A DNA stretch of 34,295 nucleotides, from assembly GCA_945876115.1 (NCBI GenBank), contig CAMCNF010000006.1, forward strand, positions 1 to 34,295, written 5' to 3'. The notes under the pieces are model-generated. The model worked only from the letters and a program-made list of their open reading frames with translations, made no database searches and was not told the origin of the DNA. The DNA is from Verrucomicrobia subdivision 6 bacterium. Lineage in GTDB: Bacteria > Verrucomicrobiota > Verrucomicrobiia > Methylacidiphilales > Verrucolacustridaceae. How positions within the stretch are numbered: position 1 is the stretch's first letter; the number at the start of each line of letters is the position of its first letter. Positions 1-8,681 of the stretch are shown in pieces. Position numbers and translations under genes: made by a program.

Positions 1-630
1 TGGCCTGCGGAGATGAAGGCGTTGGAGGCGAAGCGGGTGGAAATACGGGCGGGAGCGGAAAAGAAGCGGTTAGAGGCGCAGAGTACGGAGGTGGAGCGGA
101 AGAATTTAGAGTTGGAGGCGGCGACTCATCGAGCGAAGGTGGCGCGTTATAAGATTCAGCAGTTTGAGACACGCAAGAACGAGGAGTTTTCTGCTTTGGG
201 TACAGAAATTGCGCGGGAAGAGAAGGAGGTGCATGAGATTGAGGATCGAGAGTTGGAGTTAATGGATCGGGGGGAGAAGGCGAAGAAGGCGGCGGCGATT
301 GAGATTGAGGCGGCGAAGGGCCGTGAAGCGGAGGTGACGGCGAAGGAGTTGGAGCAGGGTAAAAAGAAGATTGAGTTGGAGACGCGGTTGGCGGATTCGG
401 TAAAGGAGATTGAGCTGCTGGCGGCGGGACTCGATGAGGGAGTTTTAGGTAAGTACCGGAGAATCATGGCGAGTAAGAAAGATGTGGCGGTGGTGCCGGT
501 GGTCCATGGGACGAACTGTGGGGGTTGCCATATGAAGTTAACCGCTGGTTCGGCGATATCTGCCAAAGCAGGAAATATGGGTGCGACGTGCGAGAACTGT
601 GGGCGATTGCTGTTCTGGCCGGTGAACTAA
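1..630 (+). CDS. CT398/CdsZ-like coiled-coil zinc-ribbon protein (5' end outside window)
   Basis: Member of the COG1579 type: a long charged coiled coil followed by a C-terminal four-cysteine zinc ribbon. The reading frame is open to base 1 (codons before the first ATG at 13 encode W-P-A-E), so the gene very probably begins upstream; about 209 codons are visible, whereas the family usually has around 240 residues. The Lys/Glu-rich helical part fills the first ~150 residues. The ribbon follows: NCGGC near residues 169-172 (counted from the ATG at 13) and CENC near 194-197, ending in GRLLFWP. Chlamydial CT398 (CdsZ) has the same layout and has been linked to sigma-54 and the type III secretion apparatus; whether this copy acts similarly cannot be seen here. 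Its last ~246 bases recur, degraded, at 3709-3954. Family assignment is confident, cellular role is not. Confidence 0.85.
   Translation, partial: WPAEMKALEAKRVEIRAGAEKKRLEAQSTEVERKNLELEAATHRAKVARYKIQQFETRKNEEFSALGTEIAREEKEVHEIEDRELELMDRGEKAKKAAAIEIEAAKGREAEVTAKELEQGKKKIELETRLADSVKEIELLAAGLDEGVLGKYRRIMASKKDVAVVPVVHGTNCGGCHMKLTAGSAISAKAGNMGATCENCGRLLFWPVN
385..630 (+). repeat. Direct repeat, intact copy (3' end of the zinc-ribbon gene)
   Basis: This stretch matches 3709-3954 in the same orientation with about 18 mismatches by eye, roughly 93 percent identity, and no indels that I can see. It covers the end of the coiled coil and the whole zinc ribbon including the stop codon. The two copies bracket two AT-rich genes and a permease remnant. 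Confidence 0.85.
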
Positions 631-678
631 AGCAAGAACAGGCTTGTTAAAAAAAGCTTGTTACTTTAATAATTTTTT

Positions 679-1368
679 ATGCGATTACTACAGGCTTCCG
701 TCCTGTCCCTTCTCCTCGTCATGCAGGTGAATGCACAAGTTGGAGAAAAGTGCTTTGGGCCTTTGACCTACGGGATGAGTGATGAAAGAGTGGAAGATGC
801 GTTGTCGAATATTGGAATACAAAGAATCCACGAACCAACCGAGTCATTGGCTTTGAGGCAAACATTTAACAATTCCGGCATCATGGCTTGGGATCGCTTT
901 GAAAACTCAAAAAACCTGCAGATCTTTGAGCGTAAATCCTTTCGGGGAAGAGTGGTCGAGCAAATAACAGAAATCCTTTGTTATTTTCTTAAGGGTCAAG
1001 CCGCAAGCAATATGGGGATAAAGACCGCCCCACAAGGCTTGCAGGCGGCTGTTCTAATCTTTGAGCCGCTAGAAAAAGATTGTCTCAATACATTTGAAAC
1101 TTTGCAAAATATTGTAAGTGAAAGAAACGGTGCGCCGACAAAGAGCACAAGAAAATTCGAAGAGCCATTTTATAAAAACGATGGCTATACAGAAACAGCA
1201 ATCAAGGCGGGTAAATGCACCTATGAAGCGTCTTGGCAGCATCCCGCAGGATTTCAATCGATTTGGCTAAGGATAGGCAAAGATATGAAAATCATGCTTT
1301 ATTATCAATCAAGCATCTTTGGTGAGGTTCTAGATCGTGATCTACAAAACAAGAAGGACCAGCTCTGA
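679..1368 (+). CDS. Secreted protein of unknown function (229 aa)
   Basis: Not recognised. Residues 1-20 form a clear signal peptide: a short basic start, the hydrophobic stretch LLQASVLSLLLVM, and a likely cleavage after VNA. The mature part is a mixed alpha/beta-looking globular sequence with several cysteines (C25, one near residue 101, one in KDC near 135, one in GKC near 178), so disulfides in the periplasm are possible. No membrane segment follows the signal. Only three bases separate its stop from the next ATG at 1372, so the two genes are almost certainly co-transcribed. Codons are much AT-richer than in the zinc-ribbon gene or larC, which fits acquisition by transfer. No good ribosome-binding site precedes the ATG; the upstream 48 bases are T/A-rich with a repeated GCTTGTTA. 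Confidence 0.7.
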   Translation: MRLLQASVLSLLLVMQVNAQVGEKCFGPLTYGMSDERVEDALSNIGIQRIHEPTESLALRQTFNNSGIMAWDRFENSKNLQIFERKSFRGRVVEQITEILCYFLKGQAASNMGIKTAPQGLQAAVLIFEPLEKDCLNTFETLQNIVSERNGAPTKSTRKFEEPFYKNDGYTETAIKAGKCTYEASWQHPAGFQSIWLRIGKDMKIMLYYQSSIFGEVLDRDLQNKKDQL

Positions 1369-1371
1369 GAT

Positions 1372-3252
1372 ATGAAAATAAAAACCCCTGTTCAATACCT
1401 GTGTTGGATTCTGACCACGCTCATGCCGCTCCTTTTGGGCCATATTTATGCCCAGACGCTGGACGAAGTATTAGGTGCGGGCAAAACGGATTACAAGCAG
1501 GCGAAGCCGGAAACTATCGAAAAGTGGGAAAACATCTTAACCATGCTGGACGCTTCAAGGTTTGAGGCAGCCTTGCCTGAACTCCAGAAATATCGGACGA
1601 TTGACGATGTAACGGAGCCTTATCAGAAGGTCTTTGTCGATTCGGTGATCATACTTATTGAGCCCGGTGATCAGTTCATGCGGGCCGATGATGTCCAGCT
1701 GAGGTACAACAAATCAATCGACAATCTAAAAAAAGATAAGGCAGACCTCTTATCTGAGAATATGGGTCTAGAAGCTCAGTTACCTGCGATTGAGAAAAAG
1801 ATCAAGGATGCTGCGACTGGTGAGGGGGTGGGTAATGCAGTGGGTGGGATGCTTGGTTTGGGCAGTGTGGGTCAAATCTCAAAAGCCGGGAAAGAGGGAG
1901 CTGAAAGAGAGTTGAGTCGCATCAAGGAAAAGATTAATAAAAACGAGACTCAGATTGCACAAATCGACACAAAAATTGAAAAGCTCAAATTGGGACAAGA
2001 AGATGAGGTGACCAAGTTAGATAGCGAATTTCAAGACCAACAAAAGGTATTGCGAGAGAAAATCAGCACTCAGATTAAAGAGCTAACAAAGACGAATCAT
2101 TCAAGAACGGCTGCAGTTCTAGCCAATGTGTATATGCGAAAACGGGGAAACGATGTGGAGATCGGAAAGTTGGCCCAGCAGGCGACCGAAAATCTAAAAA
2201 ACGAATCCAAAGCGATTGAGGTGGCTAAAGTAGCCCTGAAGCCCGTACGGGAAATGATGGACAAAATGAAGTTATGGACAGCCAAGAGTGAATTAGAAAA
2301 AGCGTTCGCCACCATCAAAAATAGAATCTCCGACAACTCCCTTACCGAGCTGATCAGTCGGGAGGTCATGATGGTCAAATATGAGTTGGATGAAAAACTT
2401 AAAAAAGTAAACGATGAGATCGGTAATTCCATGGATTTGGCCAAAGAGGATCCGGTTCAGGCAGAATCAAAGCTAATGGTGCTCAAAAAAACCTATGTGG
2501 ATGACCCTAATTTGGAGCAAAAAATCAACGAGGTGAGAACGACTCGTTATGAAAAAGAGGAAAAAACAATTCTCAGACTTTCCCAGACCGATCCGGAGGC
2601 CGCGGAACGAAAGCTATCCGAATTTGTCGACCGGAATCCAGAATTTCCCAATTCCGAAAATCTCAAGATTAAGGTCAAAGAGATAAAATTCGCAAAAAGA
2701 ATATCTGCTATTGAGGAAGTAATCAGCAATGACCCAGCGGAAGCGAAAAAAATGATTAAAACACTGATGGCCAGCGGACTTACACCGGATGACATATCTG
2801 TAGTGAAATCGAAGGTATCCAAGCTTGAGAGACAAATATTGGATAAGGAGTTTGATGGCATTAAGGCTGACATGGATGAAGCACAAGGCTTCCTAACCAA
2901 GTTTAACGCTCAGGTTGCTGGATCTGGTAACGTTCCGACGGACGGAAAAGTTGTCAAGGTTGACTTCATCTCTTCGCTTTCAATCGGCACAGAAAACATT
3001 GTTCGTGCCAGAAGTATTCAGGTGGGAGCTCAAAAACGCCTTGAAATACTTTTGGTAGAACCGATGGATAATGTGACGAAAGCCAAGCTCACTGGACTGC
3101 TTGAAACCCAAAAAGCTGCTGTTGAGCAAATGGATGAAGTAGCGAACCTACAGAGGAATAATCGAATACTTGCAGTGGCTGGTTGCGGTGTCATCTTGAT
3201 GGCGGGGGGATTTGGAGGGCTTGTTCTGAAAAAGCGTTTTAAAAAGCAATAG
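1372..3252 (+). CDS. Exported coiled-coil protein with C-terminal membrane anchor (626 aa)
   Basis: Not recognised. The N-terminus has a signal peptide (hydrophobic YLCWILTTLMPLLLGHIY, probable cleavage after YAQ near residue 28). The body is strongly helical and charged, with long heptad-like stretches around residues 115-145, 180-260 and 270-350 and further helical repeats rich in Lys/Glu to about 510. A glycine-rich break (GVGNAVGGMLGLGSVG) lies near residue 155. Residues ~599-619 form one hydrophobic helix followed by the basic tail KKRFKKQ, so the protein is probably anchored in the inner membrane with most of its length outside the cytoplasm. It lacks an LPXTG or PEP-CTERM motif. Base composition is AT-rich like its partner at 679-1368. 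Function cannot be assigned; a periplasmic scaffold or tethering role is only a guess. Confidence 0.7.
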   Translation: MKIKTPVQYLCWILTTLMPLLLGHIYAQTLDEVLGAGKTDYKQAKPETIEKWENILTMLDASRFEAALPELQKYRTIDDVTEPYQKVFVDSVIILIEPGDQFMRADDVQLRYNKSIDNLKKDKADLLSENMGLEAQLPAIEKKIKDAATGEGVGNAVGGMLGLGSVGQISKAGKEGAERELSRIKEKINKNETQIAQIDTKIEKLKLGQEDEVTKLDSEFQDQQKVLREKISTQIKELTKTNHSRTAAVLANVYMRKRGNDVEIGKLAQQATENLKNESKAIEVAKVALKPVREMMDKMKLWTAKSELEKAFATIKNRISDNSLTELISREVMMVKYELDEKLKKVNDEIGNSMDLAKEDPVQAESKLMVLKKTYVDDPNLEQKINEVRTTRYEKEEKTILRLSQTDPEAAERKLSEFVDRNPEFPNSENLKIKVKEIKFAKRISAIEEVISNDPAEAKKMIKTLMASGLTPDDISVVKSKVSKLERQILDKEFDGIKADMDEAQGFLTKFNAQVAGSGNVPTDGKVVKVDFISSLSIGTENIVRARSIQVGAQKRLEILLVEPMDNVTKAKLTGLLETQKAAVEQMDEVANLQRNNRILAVAGCGVILMAGGFGGLVLKKRFKKQ

Positions 3253-3277
3253 AGGGCATAAAATAACAACATTCGAT

Positions 3278-3300
3278 AACTAAAAAATCTTTTAGTTTTT
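3278..3300 (+). terminator. Possible rho-independent terminator, AT-rich
   Basis: Arms AACTAAAA (3278-3285) and TTTTAGTT (3290-3297) pair perfectly around the loop AATC and run into a short T tract, 26 bases after the stop of the coiled-coil gene. The stem has only one G-C pair, so its strength is doubtful. A second inverted repeat, ATCTGAT/ATCAGAT, lies at 3304-3310 and 3329-3335. Confidence 0.35.
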
Positions 3301-3376
3301 CGGATCTGATCGTGCACCTTGAAGCCTAATCAGATTTGAGGGAGTGACATTTTTAAGGAGTCTACCATTCGTGAGG

Positions 3377-3709
3377 TTAGGATTTGGGTGAGATGAGGCA
3401 GTTGTCGTAGGAAAAATAAGTATTCAGGCCGATCGCCAGCCAGAGGGTGAGGCGGATACAAGTGTCGATGGGAAGGGTGATCACCTGAGCCAGGCAAACC
3501 GAAGCTCAGGCAATCGGAATCAACTGGAGAAACGGGCAGCGGAAGTGGCGGTCGACGTTGGGGCGGGTTTTTCGAAGCATGAGGATGCTGAGGCATGCAA
3601 AGGTGAAGGGGATGAGGGGGCCAATGTAGACGAGTTCGCCGAGGACGCCTTTGGGGAGGACACTCGCCATTAATTGCAGCGAATAGTCCGATAGCAACAA
3701 GGCTGACAC
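3377..3709 (-). pseudogene. C-terminal remnant of an APC-family amino-acid permease
   Basis: Read on the minus strand, two adjacent frames give a recognisable permease tail. VSLVAIGLFAA (about 3712-3680) continues, after a one-base frameshift near 3675-3685, as LMASVLPKGVLGELVYIG, then LRKTRPNVDRHFRCPF. An in-frame TGA follows at 3506-3508. Beyond that stop the same frame still reads LPIDTCIRLTLWLAIGL and NTYFSY before a TAA at 3377-3379. Family members of the APC superfamily (YfnA/cationic amino-acid transporter type) have a GELV-IGTL-AF segment, an RPDLPRPFR-P segment and a final helix of this kind in the same order. About 110 codons survive from a protein that normally has 450-500. The break near 3706 is exactly where the zinc-ribbon fragment begins, so a rearrangement joined the two. 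Confidence 0.7.
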
Positions 3710-3954
3710 GCTTGGCGGATTCGACGAAGGAGATTGAGATGCTGGCGTCGGGACTCGATGAGGGAGTGTTAGGTAAGTATCGGAGAATTATGGCGAGTAA
3801 GAAAGATGTGACGGTGGTGCCAGTGGTCCATGGCACAAACTGTGGGGGTTGCCATATGAAGTTAACCGCTGGCTCGGCGATATCTGCCAAAGCAGGAAAT
3901 ATGGGTGCGACGTTTGAGAACTCTGGGCGATTGCTGTTCTGGCCGGTGAATTAG
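3706..3954 (+). pseudogene. Degenerate partial copy of the zinc-ribbon gene 3' end
   Basis: The reading frame reproduces the last ~80 residues of the protein at 1-630 (from the ADS-KEIE segment to FWPVN) at about 93 percent nucleotide identity, but lacks the entire upstream coiled coil. The first zinc knuckle NCGGC is kept, whereas the second has changed from CENC to FENS, so both of its cysteines are gone and the ribbon could not hold zinc. The frame has no stop codon, and many of the other differences are silent. An ORF could start at the in-frame TTG at 3712, but no ribosome-binding site is visible. It is best read as a relic of duplication rather than a gene. It abuts the permease remnant at its 5' side. 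Confidence 0.8.
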
Positions 3955-4220
3955 GGGAGAAATTACTCACGCAAAGGTCGCAAAGTACGCTAAGGAATTC
4001 TAGATGTGAGAATGTAGGAAAGTACGAAAGTCCGAATGTCGTTTTAAAGTTGGAAGTTTAGGTAGAGGCGGCATCTCTGAGGCCGCCTAGTTGGGCGATG
4101 AGTTCTACATAATTGAGCGCAGGCGTTCTCGGAGAGACCGCCCTACCTAAGTTTAGAGTTTTAGAATTACGGTCACACTTCCATGGCAGAAGCGATGGGG
4201 AGAGGTAAGGGATAATTAGG
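3955..4220. repeat. Intergenic repeat region with palindromic element
   Basis: No gene is visible. Three related 7-mers (CGCAAAG, CGCAAAG, CGCTAAG) occur at 9-10-base spacing at 3970-3994. Farther on, TTAGGTAGAGGCGG (4058-4071) pairs with CCGCCCTACCTAA (4138-4150) apart from one bulged base. Inside this, GGCGGC (4067-4072) can alternatively pair with GCCGCC (4082-4087). The nested palindrome resembles REP-like dispersed elements common between genes in this kind of genome, but dispersal cannot be tested from one window. Confidence 0.5.
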
Positions 4221-5441
4221 TTAACGGGCGAGTGATTTGGCGGACGAGCTGACTTCAGAGTATGAAACGCCGGCAGCGGTGGCGGATTTGCGGCAGTCGG
4301 CATCTTCGGGATGGATTTGGACGAGGGCATCTCCAAGGTAGCCGAGTTTAACTCGAATAGGTCCGTAGGGGGTGTTGACGGTTTTTTCTTCGCGGCGAAG
4401 AGTACGGCGGTCGACTCGTTCGAAGCGGACGCCGAAGGCGGTGGTTTCGCGAAGAACAAGGGAGGCGAGGCGTTCGGCGTCTTGGGGGAGGGCAAGGACG
4501 GTGAGGAGGTAACCTGGCCGACCTTTTTTCATGAGGAGGGGGAGGGCGGCGGCGTCGAGGGCGCCGTCGGCCATTAACCGATCGATGGCGTGGGCGAGGT
4601 GCTCACCAGTGATATCGTCGAGGTGGGTGCGTATTTCCACGATTTGATCCTGTGAGGAGGAGGGAGTCGTAGAAGGGGTGCCGAGAAAGGCGCGGAGGAC
4701 GTTGGGGCGACCTGGGAGTTCACGGGTGCCGAGTCCGTAGCCGATTTTGTCAGCGGCAAAGGAGTCGAGGGACCCAAACTTTTTTACGAAGTGGGCGAGG
4801 ATGGCGGCGCCGGTGGGGGTGGTAAGTTCGTGGGGGACGTCGAGTTGGCGGATAGGGATGCCGCGAAGGATTTCGGCGGTGGCAGGAGCGGGGAGGGGGA
4901 AGGTGCCATGGGCGCACTGGATGGTGCCGGTGCCGTCAACGGGAACGGAGGCGGTGATGTTTTCGAGTTTGAGGTGGTGTATGCCTACGGCGGCGCAGAC
5001 GAGATCAACGATAGAGTCCACGGCACCCACTTCATGGAAGTGGACGGTTTCGATAGGAACGCCGTGAAGCTTGGCCTCGGCCTCGGCCACTCGCAGAAAC
5101 ATGGCGAGGGCGGAGTCGCGAACCGCTGGAAGGAGCTTCGATTTTTTCAAAAGCTCACGAATATCGGCCCAAGAACGACCGTGATGATGATGTTCATGGT
5201 GATGATGCTCGTGATGGTGGGGGTGAGGATGGGCCGCTTCTTTAACGAGAAAACGAGTGCCCGAGAGGCCACCGCGTATGGCGCGCTCTGTTTGTAAGGA
5301 AACTTTTTCGGGTAGGCCAAGATTCTGAATCGATTCTTGAAGGAGGGTGAGGGGAACACCGAGATCCAGGAGAGCAGCTGTAAACATATCTCCACTGATT
5401 CCAGAGGGGCAATCGAGATGAAGATGGGCGGGATGGGACAT
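4221..5441 (-). CDS. larC: LarC-type nickel insertion protein for the nickel-pincer nucleotide cofactor
   Basis: LarC inserts nickel, with CTP hydrolysis, into pyridinium-3,5-bisthiocarboxylic acid mononucleotide to make the nickel-pincer nucleotide used by lactate racemase and related LarA enzymes. The 406-aa sequence opens with the family signature LDCPSGISGDMF (residues 10-20). It has a strongly histidine-rich metal-binding stretch at residues 71-87, then the conserved HFHEVGAVDSIVD and ETHLDD-like segments and the C-terminal domain in one uninterrupted frame. In some lactobacilli the protein is split and needs a programmed frameshift; that is not the case here. larB and larE are not in the window. 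The ATG at 5441 lies 21 bases from the GTG of the divergent rpiA, so the two share a very short promoter region. Identification is firm. Confidence 0.93.
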   Translation of the reverse strand: MSHPAHLHLDCPSGISGDMFTAALLDLGVPLTLLQESIQNLGLPEKVSLQTERAIRGGLSGTRFLVKEAAHPHPHHHEHHHHEHHHHGRSWADIRELLKKSKLLPAVRDSALAMFLRVAEAEAKLHGVPIETVHFHEVGAVDSIVDLVCAAVGIHHLKLENITASVPVDGTGTIQCAHGTFPLPAPATAEILRGIPIRQLDVPHELTTPTGAAILAHFVKKFGSLDSFAADKIGYGLGTRELPGRPNVLRAFLGTPSTTPSSSQDQIVEIRTHLDDITGEHLAHAIDRLMADGALDAAALPLLMKKGRPGYLLTVLALPQDAERLASLVLRETTAFGVRFERVDRRTLRREEKTVNTPYGPIRVKLGYLGDALVQIHPEDADCRKSATAAGVSYSEVSSSAKSLAR

Positions 5442-5462
5442 TGAAGATAGATTGACGCAACC

Positions 5463-6158
5463 GTGAGGAAATCCCAGAAAAGAAGAGTGGATTTAATTTC
5501 GCTGAAACGAGCGGCGGCGGAGGCGGCCTTAGCTTATGTGCCGAAAGGGTGTGTGTTGGGAGTGGGGACGGGATCGACGATGATTTATTTTATTCGGGGA
5601 TTGAAGAGGGGTTGGGTGAGGGGGGCGGTGCCCAGTTCTAAGGGGACGGAGCGGGCGTTGCGCAAAAGGGGAATTCGAGTGCTGGATTTGAATCAGGCGA
5701 AGAAAGTGAGGTTGTATGTGGATGGGGCGGATGAGGTGAACCCGAGTTTACAACTGATGAAAGGGGGGGGCGGGGCGTTGACGCGGGAGAAGATTTTGGC
5801 GAGTGCGGCAAAAAAGTTCATCTGCATCGTGGACGGGTCGAAGTTGGTCAAGAGGTTGGGAAAATTTCCGATTCCGCTCGAGGTGGTGCCGATGGCACGG
5901 GATCAGGTGGCCCGCGAGGTTCGAAAAATGGGGGGGAGGCCTGTGTGGAGAAGAGATTTTGTAACGGACAATGGGGGAGAGATTTTGGATGTACACGGCT
6001 GGAAAGTTGCGGATCCAGTCCGAATGGAGAGGAGGTTGGAGGCAATTCCTGGGGTAATCTGCGCGGGGGTTTTTGGAAAAAGGAGGGCGGATCTTCTCCT
6101 GGTGGGAACTCCGCAGGGAGTGGAAAAGTTTATAAGCGTGACAGGAATTCGGTGGTGA
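5463..6158 (+). CDS. rpiA: Ribose-5-phosphate isomerase A
   Basis: Interconverts ribose 5-phosphate and ribulose 5-phosphate in the non-oxidative pentose phosphate pathway. The RpiA motifs appear in order, counted from the GTG at 5463: GVGTGSTM (33-40, phosphate binding), PSSKGTERAL (57-66), VDGADEVNP (86-94, with the catalytic aspartates) and KGGGGALTREK (100-110), followed by FVTDNGGEILD. At 231 aa it is slightly longer than the usual ~220. The GTG at 5487 is an attractive alternative because a purine-rich AGAAAAGAAGA lies just before it, and it would give 223 aa. The gene is divergent from larC. Its last 29 bases overlap the end of the convergent parA. Confidence 0.93.
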   Translation: MRKSQKRRVDLISLKRAAAEAALAYVPKGCVLGVGTGSTMIYFIRGLKRGWVRGAVPSSKGTERALRKRGIRVLDLNQAKKVRLYVDGADEVNPSLQLMKGGGGALTREKILASAAKKFICIVDGSKLVKRLGKFPIPLEVVPMARDQVAREVRKMGGRPVWRRDFVTDNGGEILDVHGWKVADPVRMERRLEAIPGVICAGVFGKRRADLLLVGTPQGVEKFISVTGIRW

Positions 6159-6894
6159 GCTGGCGGTAGCTGGCGGCGGCGGCTCCTGCATTGTCATATT
6201 CGTAGATGGTTTGGCCGTGGCTGGGAGCTTCGGCAAGGCGGACGGATCTGGGGATGATGGTGCGGAAGACCTGTGGACCCAGATGGGTGCGAAGATCTTC
6301 ACTGACCTGCTGGCTGAGGCGGGTGCGGGTATCGTACATGGTGAGGACAATTCCGAGCACGGAGAGGGTGGGGTTGAGTTCTCCCTGTTTAATTCGTTCG
6401 ATCAGATTGAGAATCTTGCCCACTCCTTCCAGGGCAAAGTACTCGCACTGGACGGGGACGAGAATCTTGTCGGCGGCGACAAGGGCGCTGGTCATGAGGA
6501 GACCGACGCTGGGGGGGCAATCGAGGATGATGAGATCGAAGGCGGGCTGGTGGCGGAGGGGTGCGAGGGCATCGCGGACACGAAGAAGGGGATTCTCGAT
6601 TCCGGCGAGTTCCATTTCTGCCCCTGCCAGATCCATCTCGGAGGAGAGGATTTGGAGGTTCTCTTGGCGCGAAGGTTGGAGCATGTCGAGGGCGCGGGCA
6701 TTCCCGATGAGGACGGGGTAGAGACTTTTACCAAGGACGATTTCAAGCCCAAGGCCGCTGGTGGCGTTGGCTTGGGGATCGAGATCGACGAGGAGGACTC
6801 GCCGGCCGGACTCGGCGGCGCCGGCGGCTAGGTGGATGGCGGTGGTGGTTTTCCCTACGCCCCCCTTCTGGTTGCAGATGGCGATCGTTTGCAC
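6130..6894 (-). CDS. parA: ParA/Soj-family chromosome-partitioning ATPase
   Basis: A deviant-Walker ATPase of the Soj/ParA group (254 aa), which normally works with ParB bound at parS sites to segregate chromosome origins. Visible motifs are the deviant Walker A KGGVGKTT at residues 10-17, VLLVDLDPQANATSGLG (A' motif with the catalytic aspartates) and LIILDCPPSVG (Walker B). The conserved NPTLSVLGIVLTMYD and RLAEAPSHGQTIYEYD segments follow. I chose the GTG at 6894 because the family begins directly at this strand; a longer frame reaching 7182 would overlap the divergent ABC gene and adds a proline-rich, unlike sequence. No parB follows: the downstream gene is the convergent rpiA. It may pair with a ParB encoded elsewhere or act on another cargo. 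Confidence 0.92.
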   Translation of the reverse strand: MQTIAICNQKGGVGKTTTAIHLAAGAAESGRRVLLVDLDPQANATSGLGLEIVLGKSLYPVLIGNARALDMLQPSRQENLQILSSEMDLAGAEMELAGIENPLLRVRDALAPLRHQPAFDLIILDCPPSVGLLMTSALVAADKILVPVQCEYFALEGVGKILNLIERIKQGELNPTLSVLGIVLTMYDTRTRLSQQVSEDLRTHLGPQVFRTIIPRSVRLAEAPSHGQTIYEYDNAGAAAASYRQLTTEFLSRL

Positions 6895-6992
6895 AAAGAA
6901 GGAGAACGGCGGAAGGGGTGTCTTGTCGAGCGATTTTCTGTCGGCGGTGGGCTTGACCTTTGGGCTATAGTTCTTAAAATTTATGATTCGCC

Positions 6993-7919
6993 ATGATCCG
7001 AGTTGAAAATTTAACAAAGAAGTATGCGGGAGGAGAGGCAGTGCGGGGCATTTCCTTCTCTGTGGAAAAAGGGGAAGTGGTGGGATTCTTGGGGCCGAAT
7101 GGGGCGGGAAAATCCACAACCATGCGGATCCTGACCGGTTTCTTGCCAGCCACGGATGGCCGAATCGAGGTAGCGGGGGCAAAATTACCTGAGGAGAGTC
7201 TTTTAGTGCGCCAGCGAATTGGATACATGCCAGAAAATGTTCCGCTTTACCCCGAAATGAGAGTGGAGGAGTTTTTGGAGTATCGGGGTCGATTAAAGAG
7301 AGTTGCGCGTAAGGAGATTACGGAGCGCGTGGGATTGGTACTGGATCAGTGTGGTTTGTCTGAGGTGCGAAAGAAGATTATTGGCACCCTTTCGAAAGGA
7401 TTTAGGCAGCGGGTGGGTTTGGCGGATGCCTTGATCCATAATCCGCCCTTACTGATTTTGGATGAACCGACCGCGGGGCTAGATCCGCACCAGATCCGCT
7501 CGTTTCGTGAGTTGATCAAGGATCTTGGGCGAGATCGCACGATCCTGCTTTCCACCCATATTCTTTCCGAGGTGGAGATGGTGTGCGGGCGAGCGATCAT
7601 CATCAACCGAGGAAAGATTGAGGCGTCGGATACTTTGGCAAACTTGGCCAAGAGAGTGCAGTCGGGGGCTCTGCAGATTGAGGTGAAGGCGAATCCCGTA
7701 GGAGCGAAGGAAAAGTTGTCAAAGTTGAGTGAGGTTGGAGCGGTGGTGGAGTTAAATCGGGTGGGAGAGTGGGTTTCTTTTGAGGTGACGGCTTTACCAG
7801 GGAAGGATATTCGCGGAGAAGTGGACGGTTTGATTAAGCGGGAAAACTGGCCTTTGCGAGATTTCCGTCGCGAGAAGGCCCGTCTGGAAGATGTTTTTGT
7901 CGAGTTGACGCAAGAATAG
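6993..7919 (+). CDS. ABC transporter ATP-binding protein (GldA/ABC-2 type)
   Basis: The 308-aa nucleotide-binding subunit of an ABC-2 transporter. Walker A GPNGAGKST lies at residues 34-42, the signature LSKGFRQRVG at 133-142, Walker B LLILDEP at 153-159 with the D-loop AGLDP, and the switch histidine in LLSTHI near 185-190. The last ~90 residues form the regulatory extension typical of CcmA/GldA-like ATPases. It is the first gene of a six-gene operon: the permease starts seven bases after its stop. In Bacteroidota the homologous GldA-GldF-GldG set is needed for gliding. In non-gliding phyla the same module is widespread with an unknown substrate, so no transport direction or cargo is claimed. 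The 98-bp gap to parA must contain promoters for both directions. Confidence 0.92.
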   Translation: MIRVENLTKKYAGGEAVRGISFSVEKGEVVGFLGPNGAGKSTTMRILTGFLPATDGRIEVAGAKLPEESLLVRQRIGYMPENVPLYPEMRVEEFLEYRGRLKRVARKEITERVGLVLDQCGLSEVRKKIIGTLSKGFRQRVGLADALIHNPPLLILDEPTAGLDPHQIRSFRELIKDLGRDRTILLSTHILSEVEMVCGRAIIINRGKIEASDTLANLAKRVQSGALQIEVKANPVGAKEKLSKLSEVGAVVELNRVGEWVSFEVTALPGKDIRGEVDGLIKRENWPLRDFRREKARLEDVFVELTQE

Positions 7920-7925
7920 GAGCGA

Positions 7926-8681
7926 ATGATGACCCGTGCATTTTGGACGTTATGGAAGCGAGAGGCAGGAGCGATCCTGCTTTCCCCGATCGCTTGGGTT
8001 CTCCTGACCTGCATGGCCTTGATTAATGGCTTTAGCTTTAGTCAGTGTGTGGCCTACCTCGGGCAGGGCGTACGAGAGTTCACGGTGATGCAGATCTATT
8101 TCTATATTTTCCATTTTTGGTTTCTCCTGATTATTCTCGTGCCGATTTTAACCATGAGACTTTTCTCGGAGGAGTATAAAACTGGCACGATTGAGATGCT
8201 CTTGACGGCGCCAGTGCGAGATGGGGATGTGATTCTTTCCAAGTTTGCTGGCGCGCTGTCTTTTTACCTTCTGTTGTGGATTCCCTCTTTGTTGGGGTTA
8301 GCGGTCTTTCAAGTGGTGACGCATCAAGCGGTGCCGGTGGCGTGGATTCCGTTGGGGCTTTCCTACTTGATGGTGACGTTGGTGGGGATGCTTTATCTCT
8401 CGATTGGGTTATTTACTTCGGTACTGAGTAAGAATCAGGCGGTCTCGGCTATGCTAAGCTTTACGATCATTGCCCTGCTGTTCTTTACGGGCTTTTTAAG
8501 TTATCTGGTGCGGGACCCTGGATGGCGGGAAGTGCTTACCTATATTTTTACTTTGGAGCAGATGCGTTCGTTCAGTGCGGGGCAGTTCGACTCTCGGCCG
8601 GTGGTCTTTTATTTGAGTGGGACGATATTCTTTCTCTGCTTAACCCAGCGGGTGATGGCGAACCGTACCTTGAAGGGATGA
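7926..8681 (+). CDS. ABC-2 type permease, GldF-like
   Basis: Integral membrane subunit (251 aa) of the transporter whose ATPase lies just upstream. Six hydrophobic segments are evident: around residues 15-35, 55-75, 100-125, 138-160, 170-195 and 215-240. The segment LRLFSEEYKTGTIEMLLTAPV-like (here MRLFSEEYKTGTIEML, from about residue 77) is the family's cytoplasmic coupling motif between the second and third helices. AGGAG sits at a good distance before the ATG-ATG start at 7926, and only six bases separate it from the ATPase stop. It would form the pore together with the GldG-like protein encoded next. Substrate unknown. Confidence 0.9.
   Translation: MMTRAFWTLWKREAGAILLSPIAWVLLTCMALINGFSFSQCVAYLGQGVREFTVMQIYFYIFHFWFLLIILVPILTMRLFSEEYKTGTIEMLLTAPVRDGDVILSKFAGALSFYLLLWIPSLLGLAVFQVVTHQAVPVAWIPLGLSYLMVTLVGMLYLSIGLFTSVLSKNQAVSAMLSFTIIALLFFTGFLSYLVRDPGWREVLTYIFTLEQMRSFSAGQFDSRPVVFYLSGTIFFLCLTQRVMANRTLKG

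Follow-up and report, generated by a model that had tools for sequence, protein, structure and literature searches.

An AT-rich gene pair between two copies of a zinc-ribbon gene end in an uncultured member of Verrucomicrobia subdivision 6

The window analysed here, 34,295 nucleotides long, is the entire contig C6 of a metagenome-assembled genome (MAG) of a Verrucomicrobia subdivision 6 bacterium. The MAG consists of 162 contigs with a total of 1.69 Mb; it is 81% complete and has 5.77% contamination. It was compared with 20 other genomes of the genus (G001–G020), which together with the host make a set of 21. From the isolate names, we read the closest relatives of the host as being of lake origin.

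The window begins inside a gene for a protein with a coiled coil and a C4 zinc ribbon (positions 1–630, plus strand), called the zinc-ribbon gene below. Its opening codons are located on another contig, C150; this contig and the window share an overlap of 149 identical bases, and across the join of C150 and C6 the gene is an open frame of 246 codons. All four cysteines are present and the match to PF02591 scores 31 bits, above the curated cut-off of 29.1. The 3' end of this intact gene (copy A, 381–629) is repeated directly, on the same strand, at 3705–3953 (copy B); the repeat is 249 nt long, 92% identical and has a spacing of 3324 nt. The first-pass annotation had placed it at 385–630 and 3709–3954 with about 93% identity, and the repeat itself stands, with slightly wider limits. 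All other direct repeats within positions 1–8000 are of 30 nt or less. Copy B is a truncated and decaying fragment: the 5' part of the gene is missing, the last two of the four zinc-ligand cysteines are replaced by phenylalanine and serine, and the PF02591 score of 19.5 bits is under the cut-off. The two copies differ at 19 of 247 coding bases, and the longest run shared exactly is 40 bases.

Behind copy A, positions 631–678 are unlike what comes after the stop codon in any of the four close relatives discussed below. Two open reading frames of the plus strand come next, 3 nt apart in an operon-like arrangement, one of 229 codons (679–1368) and one of 626 codons (1372–3252). Both products look exported: read by eye, each starts with a hydrophobic stretch resembling a signal peptide, and at the C-terminus of the 626-aa protein there is a hydrophobic helix followed by a basic tail. 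Searches for a function of the pair in Pfam, NCBIfam, PADLOC and PHROGs gave either nothing or sub-threshold matches only. There is no relative of the 229-aa protein in the 286 genomes of the class other than the host, and neither protein has a relative among phages, plasmids, viral contigs and named genome contigs. The structural model of the 229-aa protein is useless (pLDDT 37). The 626-aa protein is predicted to be all-helical, with confident helices (pLDDT 79, pTM 0.46); its model matches no PDB structure at E ≤ 0.001, the best value being 0.009 for chain 6xns_A. On this model, it may be a solenoid or coiled-coil protein that is exported and anchored in the membrane. Most likely, the pair contributes to a putative envelope trait, the 229-aa protein being secreted and the helical one anchored in the membrane, as predicted. 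Scanning of positions 560–4230 for promoters and terminators found fewer sites than in shuffled sequences.

A spacer (3253–3393) separates the pair from the decayed C-terminus of an amino-acid permease on the minus strand (3394–3709). On this strand, 3404–3739 matches residues 364–474 of the permease of a congener with 62% amino acid identity; there is an internal TGA and a one-base shift with respect to the relatives, and the reading frame is not intact. The whole relative belongs to AA_permease_2 (PF13520, E 2.3e-63), and the decayed permease tail recognized in the initial annotation is thus real. A tree groups the remnant with the permeases of G002, G017 and G013. It was also considered as evidence for a horizontal origin of the remnant, which we discarded: vertical placement is unrejected in AU tests with three taxon sets (p 0.18, 0.06 and 0.13). 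The two reading frames of the pair stay open across 2.57 kb, whereas copy B and the permease remnant have decayed, which suggests that the pair is in use and, we infer, probably maintained by selection.

The homology to the permease ends at about position 3709 and copy B begins at 3705, with few bases common to both, so that as far as the sequence goes the junction is almost homology-free. No word of 11–25 bases spanning 3704–3713 recurs in positions 1–3600 of the window or in 18 loci (those of 17 congeners and C150), and therefore an assembler could hardly have created this join. This bears on one explanation of the locus, a chimeric assembly of two members of the clade binned together. The bin does contain two versions of a comEC contig, C132 (L139) and C135 (L140), 93% identical over 3.8 kb, so it mixes two members of the clade, and a second member was accordingly present in the sample. 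With a contamination of about 5.8% and a contig end inside the zinc-ribbon gene itself, the conditions for a chimera would exist. Nevertheless, we consider it very unlikely: besides the unique words at the join, the exact identity of the two copies does not exceed 40 bases, the window has no N, and the overlap of 149 bases between the contig ends suggests that the assembly word was much longer.

Behind copy B follows an intergenic region (3954–4220), and then larC on the minus strand (4221–5441), which codes for a nickel insertion protein (PF01969). The stop codon of copy B and the next bases match the genomes G011, G004 and G003, and G001 less well. Behind copy A, there is no match to any of these four. 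Upstream, contig C150 is 94–95% identical to the four relatives. Both outer sides of the locus are therefore native, since C150 agrees with the relatives on one side and the bases immediately behind copy B agree with three of the four on the other. It follows that the inserted part, the islet, corresponds to positions 630–3704, and that copy B, with native sequence behind it, is the displaced end of the gene.

The intergenic stretch 3946–4171 is dispersed in the genome. At least 48 of 50 matches, excluding the window itself and C150, fall there; as 40 of the 75 first-look candidates were scored, the count may be a lower bound. One match is 98% identical over 40 bases, and the stretch looks like a member of a short repeat family. 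In G011 and G004 it has the same location.

Of the 20 other genomes of the genus, 17 contain the zinc-ribbon gene (loci L035–L051); none was found in G005, G016 and G020. The four closest congeners, G011, G004, G001 and G003, have a zinc-ribbon protein 98–99% identical to that of the host. In all four of them, larC lies directly behind the zinc-ribbon gene and there is no islet. Neither the pair nor the permease was found in these four genomes; G001 gave a marginal profile match of 18 bits away from the locus. The initial annotation had proposed that the pair came by transfer or rearrangement and had suggested looking in relatives for a zinc-ribbon gene adjoining larC; this arrangement exists in each of the four closest congeners, and the proposal is supported by their empty site. 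The observation that was to count against it, the pair between the same flanks in all relatives, was made in none of these four. In five of the 17 congeners, a permease gene in convergent orientation lies behind the zinc-ribbon gene; it is whole in G002, G006 and G012, whereas contig ends truncate it in G013 and G017. The remaining eight (G007, G008, G009, G010, G014, G015, G018 and G019) have one homologous group of genes there, of which the member in G007 matches the sodium:neurotransmitter-symporter family (PF00209). The position behind the zinc-ribbon gene thus varies within the genus, with larC in four, the permease in five and the symporter-family gene in eight of 17. As the permease is convergent behind the same gene in five congeners, a related genome probably supplied the insert from the corresponding position. 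None of the 21 genomes of the genus was found to have the order zinc-ribbon gene, pair, permease. The zinc-ribbon locus of this genus is also carried by L074 and L076, records titled 'Candidatus Paceibacterota bacterium' and 'Akkermansia muciniphila', which appear to be mislabelled.

The composition of the islet is distinct from that of the rest of the window. Between 751 and 3500, the 500-base windows have a GC content of 0.41–0.46, against about 0.48–0.63 outside the islet, and the 25 listed windows of lowest GC all start between 651 and 2801. The two genes of the pair have GC contents of 0.43 and 0.44 (0.50–0.59 in 13 other genes of the window). Their GC skew at third codon positions is 0.09 and 0.20, compared with 0.38–0.79 in 14 other plus-strand genes; when pooled, these values are 0.17 and 0.58 (Fisher p 5e-19). 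The GC skew is positive along the whole contig (1–34,295) and that of the pair is low, indicating that the pair is not adapted to the local strand bias. Low GC and third-codon skew mark the pair as foreign. The distance in codon usage was rejected as a marker of foreign origin: for the pair, z is 6.4 and 9.4, for 14 other plus-strand genes it ranges from -0.3 to 15.0, and for the four minus-strand genes tested it is 25–46 relative to the plus-strand genes. The usage of minus-strand genes is this far from that of plus-strand genes because of the contig-wide positive skew, and the measure, dominated by strand skew, is uninformative for the pair. In the first-pass annotation, the pair had been described as two AT-richer genes for exported proteins and a plot of GC and codon usage had been proposed; the measured GC and the signal-like N-termini bear out the description, and the pair is distinguished by GC and strand skew, not by codon usage.

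We favour, at about an even chance, the additive capture of a fragment of a related genome by homologous recombination in the zinc-ribbon gene, probably through a circle and a single crossover. A duplicated homologous stretch, a homology-free join of the fragment ends and native outer flanks are together what a single crossover of a circularized fragment would leave. The donor fragment would have carried the end of a zinc-ribbon gene, the pair and the 3' part of the convergent permease, and the recipient chromosome would have had the zinc-ribbon gene directly adjoining larC. On closure of the linear fragment into a circle, the permease would have become connected with the zinc-ribbon gene near base 381; the circle could then have entered by a single crossover within the zinc-ribbon gene, without an integrase. 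This would leave the complete gene (copy A) before the islet and the truncated copy B behind it, on the native flank; copy B and the piece of permease would later decay while the pair stays open. Genes of the comEC type are present in 15 of the 21 genomes of the genus and genes of the dprA type in 17 of 21. Both families also occur in most of 14 control genomes, including Escherichia coli, and their presence is therefore no proof of competence; uptake of DNA is possible.

The divergence of the two copies is relevant to the age of the repeat. There are 12 differences between copies A and B at 83 third positions, whereas the four closest relatives differ among themselves at 6–10 of these sites, and from copy A or B at 5–15; hence the repeat is no fresh duplication in this lineage. 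Trees based on the 247 repeat bases are weakly supported. The main rival of the capture starts from this divergence, since copies that differ at least as much as the relatives do may predate the species. It supposes a forebear in which the zinc-ribbon gene was followed by the pair and then the permease, a tandem duplication by microhomology from about 381 into the permease, and loss in the four relatives through the repeats. Such a history would explain the same anatomy: a join between the interior of the permease and the interior of the zinc-ribbon gene is the expected scar, and recombination between the repeats would yield the arrangement of the relatives. However, it demands loss in all four relatives as well as loss of a second permease copy, and the pair still has its foreign skew. 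We regard ancestral duplication and loss as possible, but rather unlikely.

The bases of the two copies give some indication of their origins. The zinc-ribbon gene upstream of 381 is nearest to that of G011 (14 differences in 380 bases; 16–23 for the others), and larC is also nearest to G011 (90.3% versus 75–84%). Within 381–500, there are four sites where A and B each share the base of a relative: A has the base of G011 and G004, and B that of G001, which at three of the four is also that of G003. In this stretch A differs from G011 at 4 positions and B at 10, an excess without significance (p 0.17). Beyond 500, two sites with shared bases conflict, 510 being as expected for a donor-derived copy B and 591 not. 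The pattern of 381–500, formed by few sites, fits an origin of the left part of copy B from another lineage. This argues against another variant of recombination, the entry of a linear donor without a circle, by a homologous crossover on the zinc-ribbon side and a join by microhomology on the permease side (homology-facilitated illegitimate recombination). The locus does show one homologous and one nearly homology-free junction, as this process would produce. Copy B should then be fully recipient-like, yet its left part has bases of G001, albeit at few sites; we consider this route improbable.

Capture of a related fragment must also be compared with site-specific integration. Elements that integrate at the 3' ends of genes duplicate this end and leave the gene intact on one side. 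The locus shares with them the duplicated 3' end, the intact gene on one side, with the displaced 3' end and native flank on the other, and the empty site in relatives. An integrative element or island, an idea touched on in the first-pass annotation, could be imagined to have restored the zinc-ribbon gene with its own copy. The candidate was rejected, and we give it hardly any credence: no integrase was found here, and the right end is a remnant of the permease, which in congeners is a chromosomal gene next to the zinc-ribbon gene. Pfam searches revealed no integrase or transposase among the reading frames of 630–3954, sense or antisense, and the seven antisense frames of the islet (60–186 aa) match no Pfam family, in accordance with the earlier remark that no integrase is visible. 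The repeat, moreover, is long and just 92% alike, and the pair has no relatives on phages, plasmids or viral contigs.

The family of the 626-aa protein is sparse and patchy in the class. In a profile search of 384 genomes, 14 pass E 0.001, nine of them with more than 60 bits and five with less than 30; the nine include the host and three others that were used to build the profile. Within the genus, two of the 21 genomes have strong matches, the host and G015. The relatives are distant, with at best 45% identity among the genomes searched. In G015, prfA and prmC are separated by a gene for a 722-aa relative (L108, G015:C52, 1778–3946), which has a GC content of 0.50 against 0.68 and 0.65 beside it. 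Fifteen other genomes of the genus have a prfA locus; there, the prmC match starts 17–142 bases past the prfA match. The prfA stop and the prmC start overlap by four bases in 13 of these 15; G009 has a gap of 127 bases, and in G005 the prmC match starts too late for the overlap to be judged. The relative in G096 has a GC content of 0.51 in surroundings of 0.65. In G429, a 699-aa relative, 45% identical and with a GYF_2 domain, lies between an autotransporter gene and an outer-membrane barrel gene. By eye, G029 has the same gene order; its contig ends within the first gene. The relatives in G429 and G029 are not AT-rich. No partner similar to the 229-aa protein was seen by eye beside the relatives in G015, G096, G429 and G029, and only short direct repeats (up to 33 nt, 72–84% alike) surround those in G015 and G096. 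The family is AT-rich in three of the hosts examined, and its sites include the position behind the zinc-ribbon gene and, in G015, the prfA/prmC junction. From this, it might be speculated that its members are cassettes without integrases, coding for exported helical proteins, which enter junctions immediately behind housekeeping genes of this freshwater genus, spread by ordinary recombination between relatives and are retained because a surface or periplasmic trait is selected for; we find this generalization doubtful.

For the islet itself, ordinary acquisition of genes by recombination is most likely, rather than a new kind of mobile element, and the known mechanisms of gene gain are unchanged by it. 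Its value is that of a well-resolved case, in which the empty sites can be read as well as the two junctions. It illustrates how an uncultured bacterium with a small genome can gain an operon with no mobility gene visible, next to a zinc-ribbon gene whose neighbour varies among congeners. Circularization of linear DNA followed by a single crossover is described for E. coli in PMC3240628. Reasoning from that mechanism, it would likewise produce an insert flanked by repeats and a homology-free join of the fragment ends; here, the process is deduced from the anatomy of an uncultured MAG. Homology-facilitated illegitimate recombination, described by the same source for competent bacteria and as a rare event for E. 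coli, shares with the islet one homologous and one nearly homology-free side; the islet differs in its remaining duplicated stretch, for which a circle or a duplication is at least as good an explanation. The merodiploids and tandem duplications that form in transformation, as presented in PMC3784515, have in common with the islet a duplication bordered by repeats. Those described there are of about 100–900 kb and arise via repeats already in the chromosome, whereas the spacing here is 3.3 kb and the four close relatives show no such repeat.
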